From Prorocentrum cordatum (lineage: Eukaryota > Sar > Dinophyceae > Prorocentrales > Prorocentraceae), in NCBI GenBank assembly GCA_963575745.1, contig CAUYUJ010018722.1, forward strand, positions 1-64,000: a stretch of DNA of 64,000 bases. The letters run 5' to 3'. Position numbers and translations under genes: made by a program. The notes under the pieces were generated by a model. It was not told the origin of the DNA and ran no database searches. It saw only the letters and a list, made by a program, of their open reading frames with translations. The first letter of the stretch is position 1. Each line of letters starts with the position of its first letter. This document shows positions 9,499 to 57,890 of the stretch, piece after piece.

Positions 9499-12400
9499 AT
9501 GGCCACCTCTGGGGAGACGGACGAGTTCCGGCTAGAGTTGGACACGGAGGTGCAGCCACCTCCAGAGCCACAGCATGTTCCTGAAGAAACCCCAGAGACA
9601 TCGCAGAAGATGTGCATTTGTTGCGACAAGCCCCGCAAGAACAGCAAGACGAGGTTCTGCACGGCCCACTGCAACACCGAACGCTCGATGCATAACAGCT
9701 GCACGACCGATGACGAGAGGAGAGCACACAAAGAGACCATGAAGGACGACGTCGCAGCCGCTTTAAAAATCAAGGAGTACGAGCGGAAGAACCCGAAGAG
9801 CAAGCCTGGCAAGAAGCGTGGAACGTTCGACCACATCGGGTTTCAGCAGCGTTGGAAAGCCAGACACTTCTCAAACGACTTCGTGAGGGTCCAGCGCATG
9901 GACTTCATCGAGTACCCCGTCAGAGAACGACGACGAGCAGGAGAGAGGATGGAGGATGAAGGAAGAGGCCCCTGGAATTTGAATATTGGAAGCCCGAGTC
10001 CTGAGGTCCGAGGTCCGAGGTCCATCAGTCCAGGATCCAGGAGTCCAGGAGTCCAGGGCACGACCGCCCTGAGGTCCCCGTGGGCCTGGAGCCTTGAGAT
10101 TTCGTGACTCTGCTCTGATCAGGTACGCGACTCACTCCAACAGAACGAGAAACTGGGACGTGACCAGATCCGAGAAAGAGTGGGATAAGTTGGCCGCTCG
10201 TAAAACCAAGGACAACTCAGACATGCTCGGCGAGGAAGAAGGCTACGAGTTGCGCCTCGACATCAAGATCGGAGAGTTCAAGGACGTCGGCAGTGGCCTC
10301 GAGGAGGAGAAGGAGCTTTCTTTGCACGCGAAGCGCCAGAAGAGTGCGTCGGACGAGTCGTTCGAGAAGATGAAGATCGAGCTTCAGAAGGGTCTTGGAA
10401 GCATCTCCGACAAGGGCGGCTTCCACGCGTCCGCAGCCAAAGCCGTGAACTTGCAAGACAGGGTGGATAGATTCACGGGGTCCGTTGGCGACACACCTTG
10501 TTATGATTTGCTTGGCCAAGCCTTGTCAGCGGCGGCGCCTCCGCCATCGACGCCCACTGGGGCCGCTTCGTCAGCGGCAACGCCACTGAAGGAACCAGCC
10601 GGCTTTGCGAGCAGTGCAGGTACGCCAACTCAGTTGCCGCTCGACTCTGGTAAGAAAGGGGATCCGCTGAGTACGCGAGCCAAGAAGCATAACCAGTGCA
10701 CCCGGGAGCTCGTCGCCAAGAGAGACGCTCTGCATAATGCATCCGCCCAGGCGATCGACAGCCTCAAGTGCGGCGGAGTTGATGGCACCTTGGATGCAGA
10801 GTTCATCGGGATCTTGAAAAAAACGCGTAGATCTAAGCCTACTAGTGCTTGGCATGTACGACGCGCTCCCCTTCGGGCACGGTGGGCCACCAGACTTGAA
10901 GCCGAAATACCCAAACACCCCCGAGGGTCGAGAGCAGAATGATATTGCGGTTAAAGAAGCCCTGTCTGCGTTTGGCTCCCTGAAGCCAGTGGAAGACGTC
11001 AAGAATTGCATCTCCGTCTCGGGTGCAGAGGCTACGATCAACGGGCTCCTCCTGTGCCAGTCCTTCGAGGCTATCGACGCTGTCGTTGAGGAGTGGGGCC
11101 TGGTCAAAGTTCAATGGGATCTCCTGACGAGGTCGGTGAAGAGGAGCACGCAAGACATTCAGAGCAGCGTGAAGGAGAGAGCAGCTTCGATGAGGAAACA
11201 AGCCAACGCGGAGGCCAAACGGAAGGCTAAGTTGGAAGCTGAGGCCAAGAAGAAAGCTGTCGAGCAGAAGCGCCGGGAGGCGGAGGCTCGGCTGTCAGCA
11301 CCGACTGTGTCCGTCTTCAACTTGGACCTCTCCATGCACCCCAAGATCCTGGAGTTCTCGACCGACGCGGACTTCAAGGCGAAGCTCAGTGAGAATGGCG
11401 TCGATTTCACGATGCCCTTCATCATCCACGCGTCCGAGTGCGCGACCATGCTGCGCAGCGGGGAGGGCTCGGACGCTTTCAGCTCCTTGTTGTCGCGCTT
11501 CTGCGCGCAAGTCCAGGCCGTGTTGTCGAAGGCGAAGGATAGGGGATAGGCGGCGGGGCCCATGTCGTGCGTCGTGTGTATCGTGCTTTGCTTGCTCGCA
11601 GTCTTAACCGAGGCCCCCGCGAGGCGAGAAGGAGGAAGGAGGGGGGAGGGGGAGGGGAAAAGAGGAAGTGGAGGAGAGGATTGCAGGAGGAAAGTTGAAG
11701 AAGAAGGAGAAGGAAGGAGGAATAATAATAATAATAAGAAGAAGAAGCGATGCGGCGATGCGGAGATGGTCGATGATTTTTCTGGGCGTCAGATGCTTGC
11801 ATGCTTGCTGCTTGTCTGCGTGTAGCCTGGGACCCAGACCCCTCAGAGAGCCCAGTTCCCATTGGCCCTGTGCCCTGGGCCCCGAGGACCTGGGGGCCTT
11901 GCTTCTGGAACCCTGAACTTCCTTGAGCACCCTGGGACTCCCCTGCAACCCTGGGCCTGGGGCCCCAGGAAGGCCCTGGAAGATTCGAGTGTTCAGAGTT
12001 CGGAGTTCAGAGGGGAACGAGCGACTGACAGACTCCTGCCTCTGGTCATGCCCCTCTACCCGTCTGCGCGCCTCATTACCTCGCCCCTCATCACTACTCC
12101 TCCCCCATCCTCCCTCCCCCTCCCCCCTTCTCCGGGATTCCTCCGACCTTCTTACCTGCCCCTCTCCTTGCGCCCCCCCTGCCCGCCTGCCCGCAGGACG
12201 TGAATCAGAAGATCCAGAGCCCGGTGCCGGACATCTCGTGCGCCAAGCGGGCTGCCGAGGCGTTGTCGCAGATCTGGGCGCCGAGTAACGCCGTGAGTCT
12301 AGGTGACGAAGGTGGCCTTGACAAGATTACGGAGACTATGTGGTTGTGGGGGGCATCGCCTAGCGGCACCTCGATTTCGAAGGAACCCCGCGGCCTCGGC

Positions 12401-13774
12401 AGCCTGAGGATCAATTTCGGCGATCCTCTGCGCGTGATCACGACGCCAGTGGCGAGGCTCACTCCTGTTGTCTACAACATTACCAACCAGCCTGTGACGT
12501 CCAACGCGTTGTCTCAGTTTTTTGTCAACTTGAAGGCTGGCGACTTGAACGGGGTGGCCATGTACAACGGCCGAGTTGGATCGAATGCTATCGTATACAT
12601 TCCTCCTGCTTGGTTCGCGTGCTCTCAGGGCAGTCCTGCGGCAGCGGGGACCGCGGCACAGCACGTCTACGGCGTCCGCCAGAGCGTCACGCCAATGCTC
12701 GATGACAATGCCCAGCAACTCTCGAGCTTCATGATCGAAGCCGTCATGGATGTCTTGGTGAAGGATCTTGCTGAACTGGGATCGGGCCCCCAGACTTCTG
12801 CAACGACGCGCAGCACGGCTGCTGTCAAGAAGGACTTGTCTGTTTTGGCGAAGTGCAGGTCCAGCCTCAAGGCCTGCGACGAGACTACTGCCAAGACATT
12901 CGTGGCGATGCTGGAGGCAGATAACCAGAAGGTCAGGCAGCCAGAGGGCGAGCCCGAGGCGGCGGCCTCCGATGGTGCCCTGGCCTCGTCCTTGCTGGTG
13001 GCGGTAAAAGCCGAGGCTGAGAAGAAGGAGAAGGCTGAGGCTGAGGCCCAAGCCGAGGCGGCCCAGGCTGAGGCTGAGGCGGCTGAGGATGCAGCAGCTC
13101 GAGCGCCTGCCGATGGCGCCGACGAAGAACGCGGAGACATGAAGAAGGCCGCTGACGCTGAGGAGGCTGCCGTGACGCCGGGTGGCCCAGGAGTCAACGA
13201 CGACGTCCCCGACGAGGCCGAGGTTCACTTTCACTGCGATGGAACTGCTACCCCGATCGACGGGCAGATTCCGGACGAGGAGCAGCTCGACGGGCCCGAC
13301 GCCTCCATGAGTGAGGCGACGACGGCCGTGGCGGCTGAGCAGCAGGCGCTGGACTCGAACAAGGAGAAGGACAAGGAGAAGGACAAGGAGAAGGAGAAGG
13401 AGAAGGGGCCTCAGCCTGAGACAGTTGTTGAGCCAGCTGTTGCGGCGGTCGGCGGCGGCGTCGGGCAGGAGGAGGAGGGTCCTCCAGTTAAGAAAGCGAA
13501 GCTCGCTGATGAGGCGGAGGCGCAGCAGCAGGAGCCGCAGCAGCGGCAGGAGCAGCCGACCAAGAAGCTCAAGGCGGCGGACGACGCGCCCGCAGCGGCA
13601 AAGTCAGCAGGAGCACCTCCAGCGGCGCAGGAGGTCCCGGGCGCGGCGGCGGCGGCAAAGGCGGTTGCGAAGGGGGCGAAGAAAGCAGTTGCAGCTGCGA
13701 AGGGAGGAGCTGCGGCGCAGGGGAAGCTGCCCTTTGCGAAGGGCAGCAGTAGCAGCGCCGCAGGCTGCAGCTGA
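9499..13774 (+). CDS. Three-exon gene of unknown function, Cys/His-rich N-terminus and NLS-like C-terminus
   Basis: Exons 9499-9911, 10123-11537 and 12197-13774; about 1134 residues if the frameshift at the A7 run 10817-10823 is discounted. The start ATG sits in CCGCCATGG. Exon 1 carries MCICCDKPRKNSKTRFCTAH, a possible zinc-binding module, then a basic region. Exon 2 has a charged helical part, an Ala/Pro/Thr linker, and a coiled coil (about 11190-11290, AKRKAKLEAEAKKKAVEQKR). Exon 3 starts with an apparently folded domain (KRAAEALSQIWAP ... VAMYNGRVGSNAIVYIPPAW), then Ala/Glu helices, a KEKDKEKDKEKEKEK run, PVKKAKL and TKKLKAADD (NLS-like), and an Ala/Lys tail. I do not recognise a known family. 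Nuclear or nucleic-acid-binding is an inference from composition. Stop TGA 13772-13774. Confidence 0.6.
9912..10122 (+). other. Inferred intron 1 of the three-exon gene
   Basis: GT at 9912 and AG at 10121-10122. Splicing joins MDFIE to YATHSNRTRNW in phase 2. GTAC begins the intron (9912-9915) and begins the next exon (10123-10126). The interior has short repeats (GAGGTCCGAGGTCC; AGTCCAGGAGTCCAGG). Confidence 0.65.
11538..12196 (+). other. Inferred intron 2, apparently GA-AG
   Basis: No suitable GT lies near the end of exon 2. The frame is continuous if the intron starts GATAGG at 11538 and ends CCGCAG at 12196 (phase 0, ...SKAK/DVNQKIQ). AGGA stands at both borders (11536-11539 and 12195-12198). 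GA donors have been reported in dinoflagellates. The interior is purine-rich at 11620-11750 (with (AAT)n at about 11721-11736) and C/T-rich before the acceptor. Confidence 0.5.
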
Positions 13775-52478: not shown

Positions 52479-53038
52479 GGCCTTCTCAGAGTCGGGGCTT
52501 CTCAGAAGCACTTGGGCCGTGCAAGAAGTTCTCCATGCCTTCGGTGAAGTCTCAGAAAATTGTTTGGAAGGCCGGAGGACTTCTGAGCCCTCTGAGAAGG
52601 CCCGTCCCCTCTCACTTCCCCCGTGGGCTGGCCGCCGAACGCGTGGCGTGGGCTCACAAGTCAGGCTTGCGGGTCTTCTTCGAAGAACAACAAGCGGCAC
52701 AATCCTGAGTTTGATGAAGTCAGCGCGGATTTCCAATAGTCCATGTGTGCATGCCATTTTTTTTCGAGGTGAGATGGTACGCGTGGCGCGGGCCCACACA
52801 TTAGGGCAGCTGGCTGCGTGTCTTCCCGTGCCAGGCTCCCGGGGCCCGCTGGGTCCAGCCTTGGACCCAGCCCTCCATGATGTGGCCTCGTGATCGGTGT
52901 CGAGTCTCATGGGCCCTGAGGAGGCCCGGAGTCTGGAGTAACGTGCGGAAGTCGAAAAGCCCAGCATGTGGGATTGTCTGCCGTTTGCTCGTCTGGCCGC
53001 GGCATCATCCGTGTGGACCTTCCAAGATCCTTCTCCGT

Positions 53039-53058
53039 CCGCAGCCATTTTGGTTGAG
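53039..53058 (+). other. Relic of the dinoflagellate spliced leader
   Basis: CCGCAGCCATTTTGGTTGAG resembles the known 22-nt DinoSL exon: 16 of the first 19 comparable positions agree and the AGCCATTTTGG core is exact. It lies 82 nt upstream of the transporter ATG on the same strand. In dinoflagellates such relics mark genes re-inserted from trans-spliced mRNA. Confidence 0.7.
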
Positions 53059-53139
53059 TCGATTCTGGTTCAAGGCAATCTGCGTCTCCAGCTTTTCCAG
53101 TTCGGAGCGTGCTGTCCGCAAAAGGAGCGTCGTGTCGAG

Positions 53140-55797
53140 ATGGCAGCGATGGCGTCGATTTGCAAGTATGAGGAGGCTCCGCCTGAGACGGAAGCGCACA
53201 TGAGGAAGTGTTGGCACTTTGAGATGAAAGGGGTCGTCGTGATAAACCCCCTCGTGTTCATCTCCTCGACAATCTTCCTGTGGGTCTTCGTGATCCTCTG
53301 CTGCGTTGAGCCAGACTACATGAAGTTCGCCATGGACGAAGTCGCCTGGGGCTGGATCCCTGAGGTGTGGACATGGTTCTACATCGTCTCTCAGGACATC
53401 TGGGTCATTGTCTTGATCTGGGCCATGGTCCAGCACGGTAAGCTGAAGCTCGGAAAGGACGACGATGAACCGGAGTTCAGCACTGCCACTTGGTTCTCGA
53501 TGTTGTTCTGCTGCGGCGTCGCCACAGGCCTGTTCTACTACGCCGTTGCGGAGCCGATGTGGCACTTCAAGGGCTGGGGTTCCCCGAGGTTCCTCTCCAC
53601 GGTCAAGGGCTACGGGAACGTGGACGAGGACGCGACTCACGCGCTGATGGTGAGCGTCTTCCACTGGGGCGTTCATGGCTGGATCCCCTACGTGGTGATG
53701 GGGGCTACGCTTGGCATCATGACTTACCGGCGTGGATACCCAATGACCGTCCGGTATGCGTTCTACCCTCTCATCGGCGACAACGTTTATGGATGGATGG
53801 GAGACGCCGTGGACTCCCTCTCCATCGTGACGTCTATCGCAGGCGTCTGCACGTCCCTCGGCCTGGGCGCCATGTCGATCAACGCCGGACTGCAGCGCCT
53901 CAGCTGGGGGACGCACCACGGTGAGAACTTTGCCATCCCGGACGAGGCCAAGTATTCAGTTCCTGGATGTGGTGGCCAAGGATATTCCTGTGATGATGGT
54001 CAGGAATCTTTCGGCATCCAGCGAAACACGACGACCATGATCCTCATCATTCTCATCATCACCTGCCTGTCGACCGTGTCAGTAGTGATGGGCCTCGGCT
54101 CTGGTATCAAGTTCCTTTCACAGTGCGTCTTCGCAATGGGGACATTCTTGATGCTTGTCGTGGCGTTGAACGGCGAGACCTACCTCATCCTGGACAACAT
54201 TGTGCAGGTTACAGGTTACTACTTGTGGTACATCGTGAAGATTGGATTCCATTGCGACGCTTGGGAGCGTCTCGGCACCAAAGACATGGGGCTGGGCGGT
54301 TCTGGCACTAGCGGAAACACGTGGATCATTGATTGGACCATCTTCTATTGGGGCTGGTGGATCTCTTGGGGCCCTTTCGTTGGCACATTCATTGCAAGGA
54401 TCTCCAAAGGCAGGACCCTTCGTGTTTTCATCATGTCCACGCTCTTTGTGCCCACCCTGTACAGCATCGTCTGGTTCTGCGTGTGGGGCACCGAGGGCAT
54501 TCGCATGCAACGCATGGCAGACTCGGCGGGCCTGTGCACTCAAGCTTACGCGGGAGGATCGGCCTGGGCTGACCAGTACAGTTTGGCGGATAAGCAGAAT
54601 TTGAATATGGGCTGGACCCCCAGCTGCGTGCTGGACGATGCCTACCACGGCGGATACGGCAGGTGCAAGAGGGCGAAGTTCACTAGGTACGTGGATCCTT
54701 CTAAAGACGAAAAGGGCAAGCAGTGTGTCAAGCATACCTCGTGGGTGGATGTACCGTGCGGCGGGGGTCTCGATCCTACCGCAATCAACATGACGAAGTA
54801 CGATGGTACTGAGTGTGCGAAGTACATGACCGAAATCAACGAGCTGGCTGCTGACAATTACGACCAGTTCCCGACTACCGACCAGTCTGACTGCTTCGTG
54901 CCTCTCCAGGATGGTACCGTATGCTTGTACAACCAGGCTACCGCAGACATCCTGTTCGACCAGATCTCCTCGTACGGCCCGCGCGGCTATTCCGACATGC
55001 TGTGCGCACTCACGCTCATCATTTTGACATTCTACTTCGTGACCTCGTCGGATTCTGGATCGTTCGTGGTGGACATCCTTTCCTCCAACGGCCACCCAGA
55101 CCCCCCAGTGTTCCAGCGTGTCTTCTGGTCCTTCACAGAAGGGGCCACCGCTATTGCCTTGCTGTATTCTGGCAACAACCACCCGAGCGCAGACGCTGCA
55201 CTTAAGGCCCTCCAGGCGGCGTCCATCATCACGGGCCTGCCCTACACATTCGTCATGTTCTGGTGCTCGCAGTCACTCGTGATCTTGTGCCAGGAGGAGA
55301 ACGGCGGGCTCGACCCTAACCGGAAGGCCTTCTCAACGTTCATTTTCAACATGAAGAACCTCGTCCTTCACTTGAAGAACACAGCCTTGCCTGGCGTAAC
55401 CATGGGCAGGGCTGTGGTGCACGTCGGCAAATGGCCTTTCGCTGGCCTCGGTCCGGGCGTCACGTTTGGCTTGTGGACGGGTGCCTTCTCCTTGCTGTAC
55501 TACACTGCAATCATTTTCACCATATGCACTGCGGCCCTGTACCAATGGGCGCTCATCGGCTGCACGTTCTACATCGGCTTCGGCACCTTCGTTGGCCTGC
55601 TCCGCAACCACATGCGCGTGAAGCACTTCATCGAGCATGGCGACATCGCCACTGACCTTCTTTGCGGCATATTCGCGCCCATGTTCACCCTCTCCCAGAT
55701 CGAGGCGCAGTTCACGGAGCCCATCGAGAACACGAAGAAGAACGACGACCTTGCTCCTCAGGAAGAGAGTAACGAGGAGCAGCCCGCACAGATCTGA
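53140..55797 (+). CDS. BCCT-family (betaine/choline/carnitine) transporter
   Basis: 885-residue multi-pass membrane protein, intact and intronless. Start chosen at ATG 53140 (MAAMASICKYEE); the frame is open upstream to 52966, but that part contains the spliced-leader relic and reads as 5' UTR. Family evidence: CCGVATGLFYYAVAEPMWHF (from residue 124), HWGVHGWIPY, the BCCT signature WTIFYWGWWISWGPFVGTFI (from residue 399) followed by ARISKGRTLR, and FYFVTSSDSGSFVVD (Asp 638). BCCT proteins take up quaternary-ammonium osmolytes, often with Na+ or H+; the substrate here is not determined. The segment between the helix after the signature and the TSSDSG helix holds an extra roughly 110-residue Cys-rich loop, longer than in bacterial relatives. 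The C-tail is acidic and polar (EESNEEQPAQI). Stop TGA 55795-55797. Confidence 0.93.
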   Translation: MAAMASICKYEEAPPETEAHMRKCWHFEMKGVVVINPLVFISSTIFLWVFVILCCVEPDYMKFAMDEVAWGWIPEVWTWFYIVSQDIWVIVLIWAMVQHGKLKLGKDDDEPEFSTATWFSMLFCCGVATGLFYYAVAEPMWHFKGWGSPRFLSTVKGYGNVDEDATHALMVSVFHWGVHGWIPYVVMGATLGIMTYRRGYPMTVRYAFYPLIGDNVYGWMGDAVDSLSIVTSIAGVCTSLGLGAMSINAGLQRLSWGTHHGENFAIPDEAKYSVPGCGGQGYSCDDGQESFGIQRNTTTMILIILIITCLSTVSVVMGLGSGIKFLSQCVFAMGTFLMLVVALNGETYLILDNIVQVTGYYLWYIVKIGFHCDAWERLGTKDMGLGGSGTSGNTWIIDWTIFYWGWWISWGPFVGTFIARISKGRTLRVFIMSTLFVPTLYSIVWFCVWGTEGIRMQRMADSAGLCTQAYAGGSAWADQYSLADKQNLNMGWTPSCVLDDAYHGGYGRCKRAKFTRYVDPSKDEKGKQCVKHTSWVDVPCGGGLDPTAINMTKYDGTECAKYMTEINELAADNYDQFPTTDQSDCFVPLQDGTVCLYNQATADILFDQISSYGPRGYSDMLCALTLIILTFYFVTSSDSGSFVVDILSSNGHPDPPVFQRVFWSFTEGATAIALLYSGNNHPSADAALKALQAASIITGLPYTFVMFWCSQSLVILCQEENGGLDPNRKAFSTFIFNMKNLVLHLKNTALPGVTMGRAVVHVGKWPFAGLGPGVTFGLWTGAFSLLYYTAIIFTICTAALYQWALIGCTFYIGFGTFVGLLRNHMRVKHFIEHGDIATDLLCGIFAPMFTLSQIEAQFTEPIENTKKNDDLAPQEESNEEQPAQI

Positions 55798-57890
55798 GCG
55801 AGGCCTCGCCGTCCCTGGGGGCTGCGATCTGCGACACAGTCGCCACTTTCGAGGGGAGGGGAGGTGATAGAGGAGGAAGAGGAGGAGGAGGAGGAGGAGG
55901 AGGAGGAGGAGGAGGAGGATAAAGACGAATCGTTGTTAATCGAGAGAGGGCTTCGATGGCAGAACAGGCTGGGGAGACCTTTCAATGGCATGGCACCCCG
56001 AGCCTACCCGCTGTGGTTGTGTGTCACCAAGCTGGGTTTTGCAAATGCGATCTTCCCCAAAGCGGCGCGCGTGACGCCTCACATTCTACGTATACCTGTA
56101 CGTACGAGCGTGGCGCGGCTGCGGCGCCCACAGCCATCTCGGCGGTCTTCCCTGGGAAGGAGAAATTGTGGAGATGGACAGAGGGTACGATACCAGGATT
56201 GACGAGGGGGAGGGGACCACGGACCAGGGAAGCAAAGGTTAGTGGCGTCGTCCGCCGCCTGGGTGTATTCGCCAGCCATGTTTCGTGCATTGCAGGCAGC
56301 GGAGCAAGTCGCTCTTTCTTGCGATCGCACAGGCTCGAATGTAGATAAATTATAGATTTTCGACGACCTGAGACTCGACTAATACACTAATATGGTTTGA
56401 CCCAGCCCGCTAAATTGTCGTTACCTTTAAGACATGTGGTGCGGGCAACCCATCTTGGCTTCAGACCTTGTGTCTTGAGCATCCATTCCGCCCATCCCGG
56501 TGGAGGCAACCTCTCCGAACATGTTTTTCCACATTGTCGTCGTCCCCCCTTTGACCCCCCTCCGTTATCATCACCATCCTCCTGCTATTCTTCCTTCGCC
56601 CTCCTCAACCTCCACAGGCCTCACCTGCCGACGAGAGCAGTCGCTAGCCGGGCAGAACGGTGATGAGAGTTGATGCCAGAATCGATTTTCTGCGCATCCA
56701 AAAGCAGGGATTGTAGAGAATGCAATGTACGTCGGGAGGTCAGAAGAGGAAGGATGAGGAGCAGTAGGAGGAGGAGGAGGAGGAGGACAGAGGACATTGT
56801 CACATGTTTGTGGTTTCAGAGATCCTGGAACCTACGCTCTTACCTTTTGTCAACTTGGCACCCTGTGCCGATGTGTTCTTAGGGTTGGAACTCGAGTAGA
56901 GTTCCAAATATTCTGCAATGGACGCCCAATTCAAGTTGTAAGCTTGTAATAGTCGGGCCTTCCCTGCCTGAGTTTGCAGGAGCGCCAAAGGGTACCTCCT
57001 CCCTCTGACTTCCCTCCCTTCGATCCCGCCTCTCATCTCGCCTCCCGCCTCCTTTCATCGGACGGGTGCTGCGCGAACACGCTGGCCAAGGGGAACAGAA
57101 AATGGAAGATCCTCTCCCGTCGTGGGCGAGCGCCACGACTGCACGCCCACATTTGCGCCTCCTGGGACCAGCAGAAGTGGCTCCTCCTGTGGCCTTCGCA
57201 CTCGACTCCCTTCCGCATCCCCCCCAAGCACCATCGATCCGTCCTCCCCTTCGACGTTTGGCGCGACAGAGAGAAGACATTGAACATACGGGGAAGAACT
57301 CTCAGCCAACAAATCAGGGCCTTGCTCTAGCCCCGCTGCGACCTCAGGTACTGTGCAAGAGGGTCGCTGGATTTTGAATATGTAGATGTGTTACCCGGTT
57401 AGCTCCGCATGACATGCTCAAAGTCTTCAGCATTGTTTGTGCCACAACGATCGCATGCACGAGGGATTTTCTATCCAAACTGATACAATCTCGCTTTCGG
57501 CCATTGTTCGCGTAAGCATTTCAAATATCCAACGCCCACTTGGACATCTTGTCGTCGTTTCGCTCGGCTGTGACTCCTACTGTAGCCCAGCGCCTGCGAC
57601 CAGTGATTCACCGGCCAGGCGGTGGGTCGACCACCGGGAGGCGGAACGAGAGGTGAGGATGAGAAGGAGGATGAACGGTGAGGGAGACGGTGAGGGAGGA
57701 GGAGGGGCAGGGAGAAGACGAGGTGCGCAGGAGGAGGCTTGCGAATGTCTTCGCTTGCTCATTATCGGATGTTCAAAGTTGCAGGAGGGCGAGGAGGAGG
57801 AGGAGGCCCAGGATCAGGAGCAGGAGGGGCGGGATGAGGTGAAGTAGGAGGAGGTTGGAGAAAGATAGCGATCAGGAGGAGAGGATGACG
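55798..57890. other. 3' flank of transporter; (GGA)n tracts; no gene recognised
   Basis: (GGA)n at 55866-55920, AG-rich at 56740-56795 and 57640-57730. The rest is mixed. No coding motif found. Confidence 0.4.

Follow-up and report, generated by a model that had tools for sequence, protein, structure and literature searches.

A tandem spliced-leader relic in front of an intronless BCCT transporter gene of Prorocentrum cordatum points to a functional retrogene with repeated passage through mRNA

Processed retrocopies made by mammalian LINE-1 are intronless copies of mRNAs with 15–21 bp duplications and an A-rich 3′ end. LINE-type target-primed insertion typically leaves duplications of such a length; LTR integrases make duplications of 4–6 bp. 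In dinoflagellates, retrogenes tagged with DinoSL were reportedly described by Slamovits and Keeling in 2008, and SL-tagged retrogenes are already known as abundant in this group. In the parts of the literature considered here (Song 2018 review, PMC6050394; Haro 2025, PMC12014239), such retrogenes show a genomic relic before the gene, repeated rounds, and transport among the enriched functions; the locus described below shares these features, probably including the repeated rounds. The 37-nt tandem of SL and relic comes from transcripts in these sources, whereas it lies in genomic DNA here. Also unlike the retrogenes in the sections considered, the present family comprises numerous insertions of a single gene, for which intron-bearing counterparts can be identified, and it shows target-site duplications. 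The former source, in the part considered, treats the machinery as unknown and regards Ty1/copia as more likely, on the basis of Ty1/copia expression, while the corresponding part of the latter leaves it open; LINEs have been proposed for endogenous viral elements in Symbiodiniaceae (PMC10235124, in part).

The analysed window, a stretch of 64,000 nucleotides, corresponds to contig C17873 of the 4,128,499,153-base Prorocentrum cordatum assembly. An intact, intronless BCCT-family transporter ORF occupies 53140–55797 on the plus strand, the strand of all features of the locus given here. Its frame is unbroken over 885 codons (885 aa) and collinear with relatives. The protein contains Pfam PF02028 (E 7.9e-134; 447 bits, curated cut-off 27), as do the BCCT transporters of solved structure (BetP, DddT, and the trimethylamine transporter), and its nearest solved chain is 8zw8, a trimethylamine transporter (E 7.2e-79); the stretch between residues 455 and 618, however, corresponds to only 30 residues of the closest solved chain. 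The best public relative, P0001 from Prorocentrum cordatum, is 79% identical over 99% with agreeing start codons. Among 120 listed proteins, no near-identical entry exists for the proteins of the window copy's clade, so the public gene set may lack the window gene.

Two leader units precede the ORF. The younger relic, a full 22-nt DinoSL at 53038–53059, matches 16 of 21 fixed positions and keeps the AG in CCGCAG. It is directly adjoined by an older, 15-nt truncated leader at 53060–53074 (12/15), which corresponds to the remainder left by trans-splicing at the AG inside CCGTAG. The 5′ UTR at 53075–53139 is common to other copies and starts with GCAATCTG, as does the sequence that follows the presumed acceptor in the relatives with introns, C16199 and C3014. 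Downstream, the 3′ UTR region resembles the copies C17309, C17206, and C13758 over 55798–56292, where the BLAST pieces stop; gapped similarity to the same three runs on to about 56530. The preliminary description had noted a near-copy of DinoSL with an exact core and changes gathered at its 3′ end. This leader is real: its core AGCCATTTTGG is unchanged, and four of the five changes fall within the last six positions. The upstream placement stands, but not the distance of 82 nt, since 80 nt separate the 3′ end of the leader from the ATG at 53140. The second unit had been overlooked. The gene is intact and intronless as described, but that it is the only long intact gene is doubtful, given a second long ORF at 12029–13774, along 309 residues of which a match runs with no intron. 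Over these residues, the second ORF, also delimited as 12194–13774, is 97% identical to an entry that EukProt assigns to Pyramimonas sp., an assignment that perhaps reflects contamination or mislabelling of that dataset.

Judged from sequence comparison, the window BCCT gene is most probably a functional retrogene that has passed at least twice through mRNA (probability roughly 0.93). DinoSL or its relic stands upstream of the start codon, with a joint tandem score of 28/36 that holds up against controls, and the open frame is under purifying selection (dN/dS 0.15–0.17 against five intronless sisters). The earlier proposal that the gene returned by reverse transcription gains support from intron-bearing paralogues, breakpoints at the leader, duplications in five sister copies, and this dN/dS.

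A protein search of the assembly yields at least 35 matches. Nine of them, the window copy included, span the full length with neither introns nor interruptions. C773 does not differ from C20774, flanks included (4,583 nt of unmasked part compared), and the two are therefore tallied as one, giving eight insertions. Six intronless copies (C17822, C773, C20774, C17309, C17206, and C13758) are 93–94% identical in protein, and two, C2235 (80%) and C16388 (79%), are more distant. Broken copies are found on C17698 (L023), C3780 (L034), and C3266 (L029); about 10 kb separates the two parts of C3780, which carries an exact leader. Intron-containing paralogues, which the preliminary description had suggested looking for, are present: C16199 with two exons, C3014 with three, and C2259 with several. 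C2235 shares 95–97% DNA identity with the exons of C16199, and C16388 98% with those of C3014, the introns being missing from the former member of each pair. From the window copy itself, the intron-bearing paralogues are far removed (dS 0.77 and 0.87 in the two comparisons made), and the assembly protein search found no intron-bearing member of its own 93–94% clade.

Compared with its five intronless sisters, the window copy shows a dS of 0.22–0.24, and it branches outside them in a tree rooted on other genes. Coding dS among C17309, C17206, and C13758 is only 0.005–0.015, which indicates recent retroposition in that lineage. C773 additionally carries an insertion in its 3′ UTR (L012, 4273–4429, about 130–290 nt past the stop codon), which is bounded by inverted GGTCGGGTCTGTCCC / GGGACAGGCCCGACC and looks like a small DNA transposon.

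Several of the sister copies retain footprints of insertion. Copy by copy, the 40 nt before the leader were sought again downstream of the stop codon; the test covers one gene family with nine testable copies. C17822 is not among them, since its (TCC)n flank scores 17 with itself and up to 27 with other copies. Five of the nine copies have duplications of 15–21 bp (scores 12–21), four of which adjoin A-rich tracts, while 81 mismatched flank pairs, again excluding the C17822 flank, score at most 10. The duplication of C17309 matches at 21/21 positions, its first three bases lying within a run of nine As, and that of C17206 at 20/20, with its first two bases within a run of eight As. Those of C773 (18/19) and C17698 (18/19, in a search covering only 1,497 nt) follow A8 and CAT and follow AAAACATAAG, respectively, and that of C16388 (14/15) has no A tract. 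No duplication above the level of mismatched pairs was found for C2235 (8), C3780 (6), or C13758 (10). At the window locus, the poly(A) trace and duplication that the preliminary description proposed to look for did not appear: no run of six or more As occurs up to 57500, and no duplication up to 64000 (best score 7, with five of nine copies positive in the family). As the window insertion is old, its missing duplication says little. Seven other SL loci likewise show neither a duplication nor a run of at least seven As in about 1.5 kb downstream, a span that may miss the 3′ end; simple repeats flank six of these loci.

Intron loss, duplications of 15–21 bp, and A-rich 3′ ends in several copies are shared with the LINE-1 retrocopies of mammals. 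In contrast to those, the A tracts here are short, with runs of 8–9 counting bases shared with the duplication, and a leader stands at the 5′ end, although the copies were chosen for it and the fragments C1311, C5396, and C15622 lie outside the comparison. In the sisters, the length of the duplications and the A-rich tracts point to LINE-type insertion rather than to an LTR route. From this footprint, LINE-type machinery is likely at the window copy as well: a LINE-type reverse transcriptase would have copied a mature, poly(A)-bearing mRNA by the target-primed mechanism. Retroposition by LTR (Ty1/copia-like) machinery, for which the considered part of PMC6050394 argues from Ty1/copia expression, is an unlikely alternative, as the duplications are not of the 4–6 bp made by LTR integrases and A-rich tracts stand beside four of the five, although four of the nine testable copies lack a duplication. 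PMC6050394 and PMC12014239 use the phrase “target site duplication” 0 times, and “target site” has 0 in the review PMC11453091; among the matches listed, no dinoflagellate retrogene paper uses the former phrase, and an earlier description may exist.

The tandem arrangement of leader and relic indicates at least two passages of the window gene through mRNA, and both rounds are read from it. In the first round, reverse transcription and insertion of an mRNA capped with the SL, its leader spliced to GCAATCTG, would have left a full relic behind. In the second, a transcript of this first copy would have been trans-spliced anew at the AG within that relic, CCGTAG|CCATTTTGG, and its insertion would have produced a leader plus a truncated relic. 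The second unit starts where the internal AG acceptor predicts. Its end coincides with the boundary between leader and common 5′ UTR in sister copies, which lends it independent support. Alternatively, retroposition could have happened only once, with the second unit produced when the leader was duplicated locally or copied again by template switching, and the similar wear of both units (16/21 and 12/15) is compatible with this. We consider it improbable, since the second unit begins exactly past the AG of the internal acceptor, an arrangement that C17309 and C17206 repeat, and tandems of the same form recur in the genome, with 622+580 exact 36-nt matches (1202 in total) against 0+0 for the reversed control.

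The relic of C17309 and C17206, which follows a leader as in the window, has TTCTGG for TTTTGG, and the same T-to-C change occurs in the single relic of C13758. On the simplest reading, a C13758-like locus would be the source of C17309 and C17206, trans-spliced at the AG inside its relic. As a sign of kinship between the older relic of the window and that of C17309/C17206, the shared change was set aside; it is probably parallel or ancestral because the tree places the window copy outside the other five intronless copies. A third relic in the window (7/15) was dropped, as this sequence is the 5′ UTR common to the copies. An SL RNA gene fragment was set aside by eye; no GT donor follows either unit, and both lie at the UTR junction.

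Since the relic contains an AG, every insertion carries its own possible trans-splice acceptor. At the window locus, CCGCAG of the younger relic presumably serves as the acceptor today; it follows a stretch of 70% pyrimidine, and an alternative candidate AG at 53099 has a stretch of 80%. Such a built-in acceptor would help to keep retrocopies expressed and open to recopying.

At their 5′ ends, the copies share a UTR that begins immediately 3′ of the leader, while the DNA upstream of the leader is unlike. The similarity breaks at an SL in all ten insertions compared, two of them broken. The leader match is 21/21 in C17822, C17309, C17206, C2235, and C3780, 19/21 in C773, C13758, and C16388, and weaker in the window copy (16/21) and in C17698 (15/21); the broken copy C3266, outside these ten, has 19/21. 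The flanks of C3780 and C17698 were compared by eye. Among the eight intact insertions, no aligned BLAST piece of more than 300 nt crosses the leader into the upstream flank, the identical pair C773/C20774 excepted. C16199 and C3014, which have introns, show ...TGGCTCAG|GCAATCTG at their presumed acceptor. Spread of the copies by DNA-level duplication, with the leader as a retained promoter or processing element, is very improbable in the light of these unrelated flanks with their common break at the leader, of the missing introns, and of the target-site duplications, most with A-rich ends; the identity of C773 and C20774 does show that DNA duplication or uncollapsed haplotypes occur.

A chance SL-like 20-mer upstream of an intronless gene can practically be dismissed: a 16/21 match does arise in 12 of 100 simulated 64-kb windows (one strand) and the 11-nt core AGCCATTTTGG occurs three times in the window, once inside a repeat of GCCATYTTGG-like units, but a second unit adjoins the leader and exact leaders stand at the same junction in sisters with other flanks. 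Of 300 scrambled leaders, too, 20 score 16 or 17 at some place in the window, so the single leader is weak alone, and the core was dropped as evidence, not being diagnostic by itself. The published 37-nt tandem, to which leader and relic at 53038–53074 correspond, stands out from its controls. The best tandem score is 23 elsewhere in the window and 25 in 100 simulated 64-kb windows (one strand). Scrambled leaders score at most 24, both for 2000 of them in the 200 nt upstream of the ORF and for 300 on both strands of the window. Matches of at least 12 to the 15-nt relic occur at 5 of 127,972 window positions, 53060–53074 among them. Further leader-like matches in the window (47512 on the minus strand, 56444, and 58262) are within the range of chance.

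Genome-wide, SL sequence is abundant in P. cordatum, far above chance: a 17-nt SL pattern has 10815+10744 matches in the assembly, and its reversed control 4+1. The pattern occurs about once per 191 kb, which answers only in part the comparison with random genome positions proposed in the preliminary description. On contig C1, five of seven SL loci (L002, L003, L005, L007, and L009) have (TCC)n-like sequence directly upstream of the leader, possibly because insertion prefers such targets, because the tract serves splicing, or because the loci belong to a repeat family. Several of these loci have up to 271 nt of similar flank in common, largely repeat. Targeting to microsatellites was set aside, as C17822 is the only one of the ten BCCT flanks listed with (TCC)n-like sequence. 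L002 and L009 stay similar for about 56 nt downstream of the leader, with GGATACCGCTAGTCCGCGG common to both, which suggests that some SL sites are part of a repeated element.

DinoSL also occurs in an AT-rich IMG/VR contig (22% GC), IMGVR_UViG_3300045993_001077 (L001), which its collection labels as viral. A GC-rich island at about 1785–2766 on its minus strand starts with an exact DinoSL (2746–2766), encloses a 254-aa ORF (49% GC), and finishes in A6; by its sequence features, it resembles an mRNA captured from a dinoflagellate. Another exact DinoSL occupies 2893–2913. The protein search returned no relative of the 254-aa ORF except itself, and no other viral contig contains an exact SL, nor does any contain an exact tandem.

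Comparison with the retrocopies also locates introns. The intron of C16199 measures 3524 nt and the second intron of C3014 3342 nt; the first intron of C3014 is split over two loci. None of the best-scoring placements in these two genes has GT-AG, GC-AG, or GA-AG ends, and short direct repeats are found at the intron borders. The C16199 intron and the second one of C3014 share a segment of 179 bp with 88% identity. At one junction, the public model P0001 reads YIQIG, the retrocopy YIVKIG, and the environmental relative P0004 YIIKIG, so that the public gene model appears to be wrong here. P0030 contains NYSRRFAFT, which equals the C3014 DNA translated onward into the intron. Introns without GT-AG ends are known in other dinoflagellates from the parts of PMC2488372 and PMC7789003 considered. 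The non-canonical introns and introners of Amoebophrya, as far as covered by that part of PMC7789003, share with those of C16199 and C3014 the lack of GT-AG ends and the short direct repeats at the borders; the host here, in contrast, is Prorocentrum.

All three intron-bearing members have leader-like sequence at the same UTR junction. In an anchored alignment control with 6000 random AG sites from the window and the intron-bearing loci, 3 sites score at least as high as C2259, 19 as C16199, and 207 as C3014; for the window relic, the numbers are 3 for the younger and 48 for the older unit, which by itself does not stand out in this control. C16199 and C3014 are related, so their scores are not independent, and the trace of C3014 is weak alone. 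Their 5′ flanks have no significant similarity, which at a dS of 0.54 carries little weight. If these older leader traces are real, the introns may have been gained, or retained, after an earlier retroposition. Tentatively, and at somewhat less than even odds, the BCCT family may pass through cycles in which retrocopies gain non-canonical introns, come to look like ordinary genes with introns, and are then recopied without introns by LINE-type retroposition, the relic giving the trans-splice acceptor each time.

To what is known of SL-tagged retrogenes, the family of the window adds the double relic, intron-bearing counterparts, duplications, and weaker SL-like traces before intron-bearing genes. 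Dinoflagellates have an exceptional number of mRNA-derived genes, and the considered parts of the retrogene papers leave the inserting machinery unsettled. With counterparts, young and old copies, serial relics, and duplications available in one family and one assembly, the insertion mechanism becomes directly measurable. The retrocopies further act as fossil cDNAs, pointing to introns without GT-AG ends. Were the proposed cycle true, intron-bearing need not mean ancestral in dinoflagellates.
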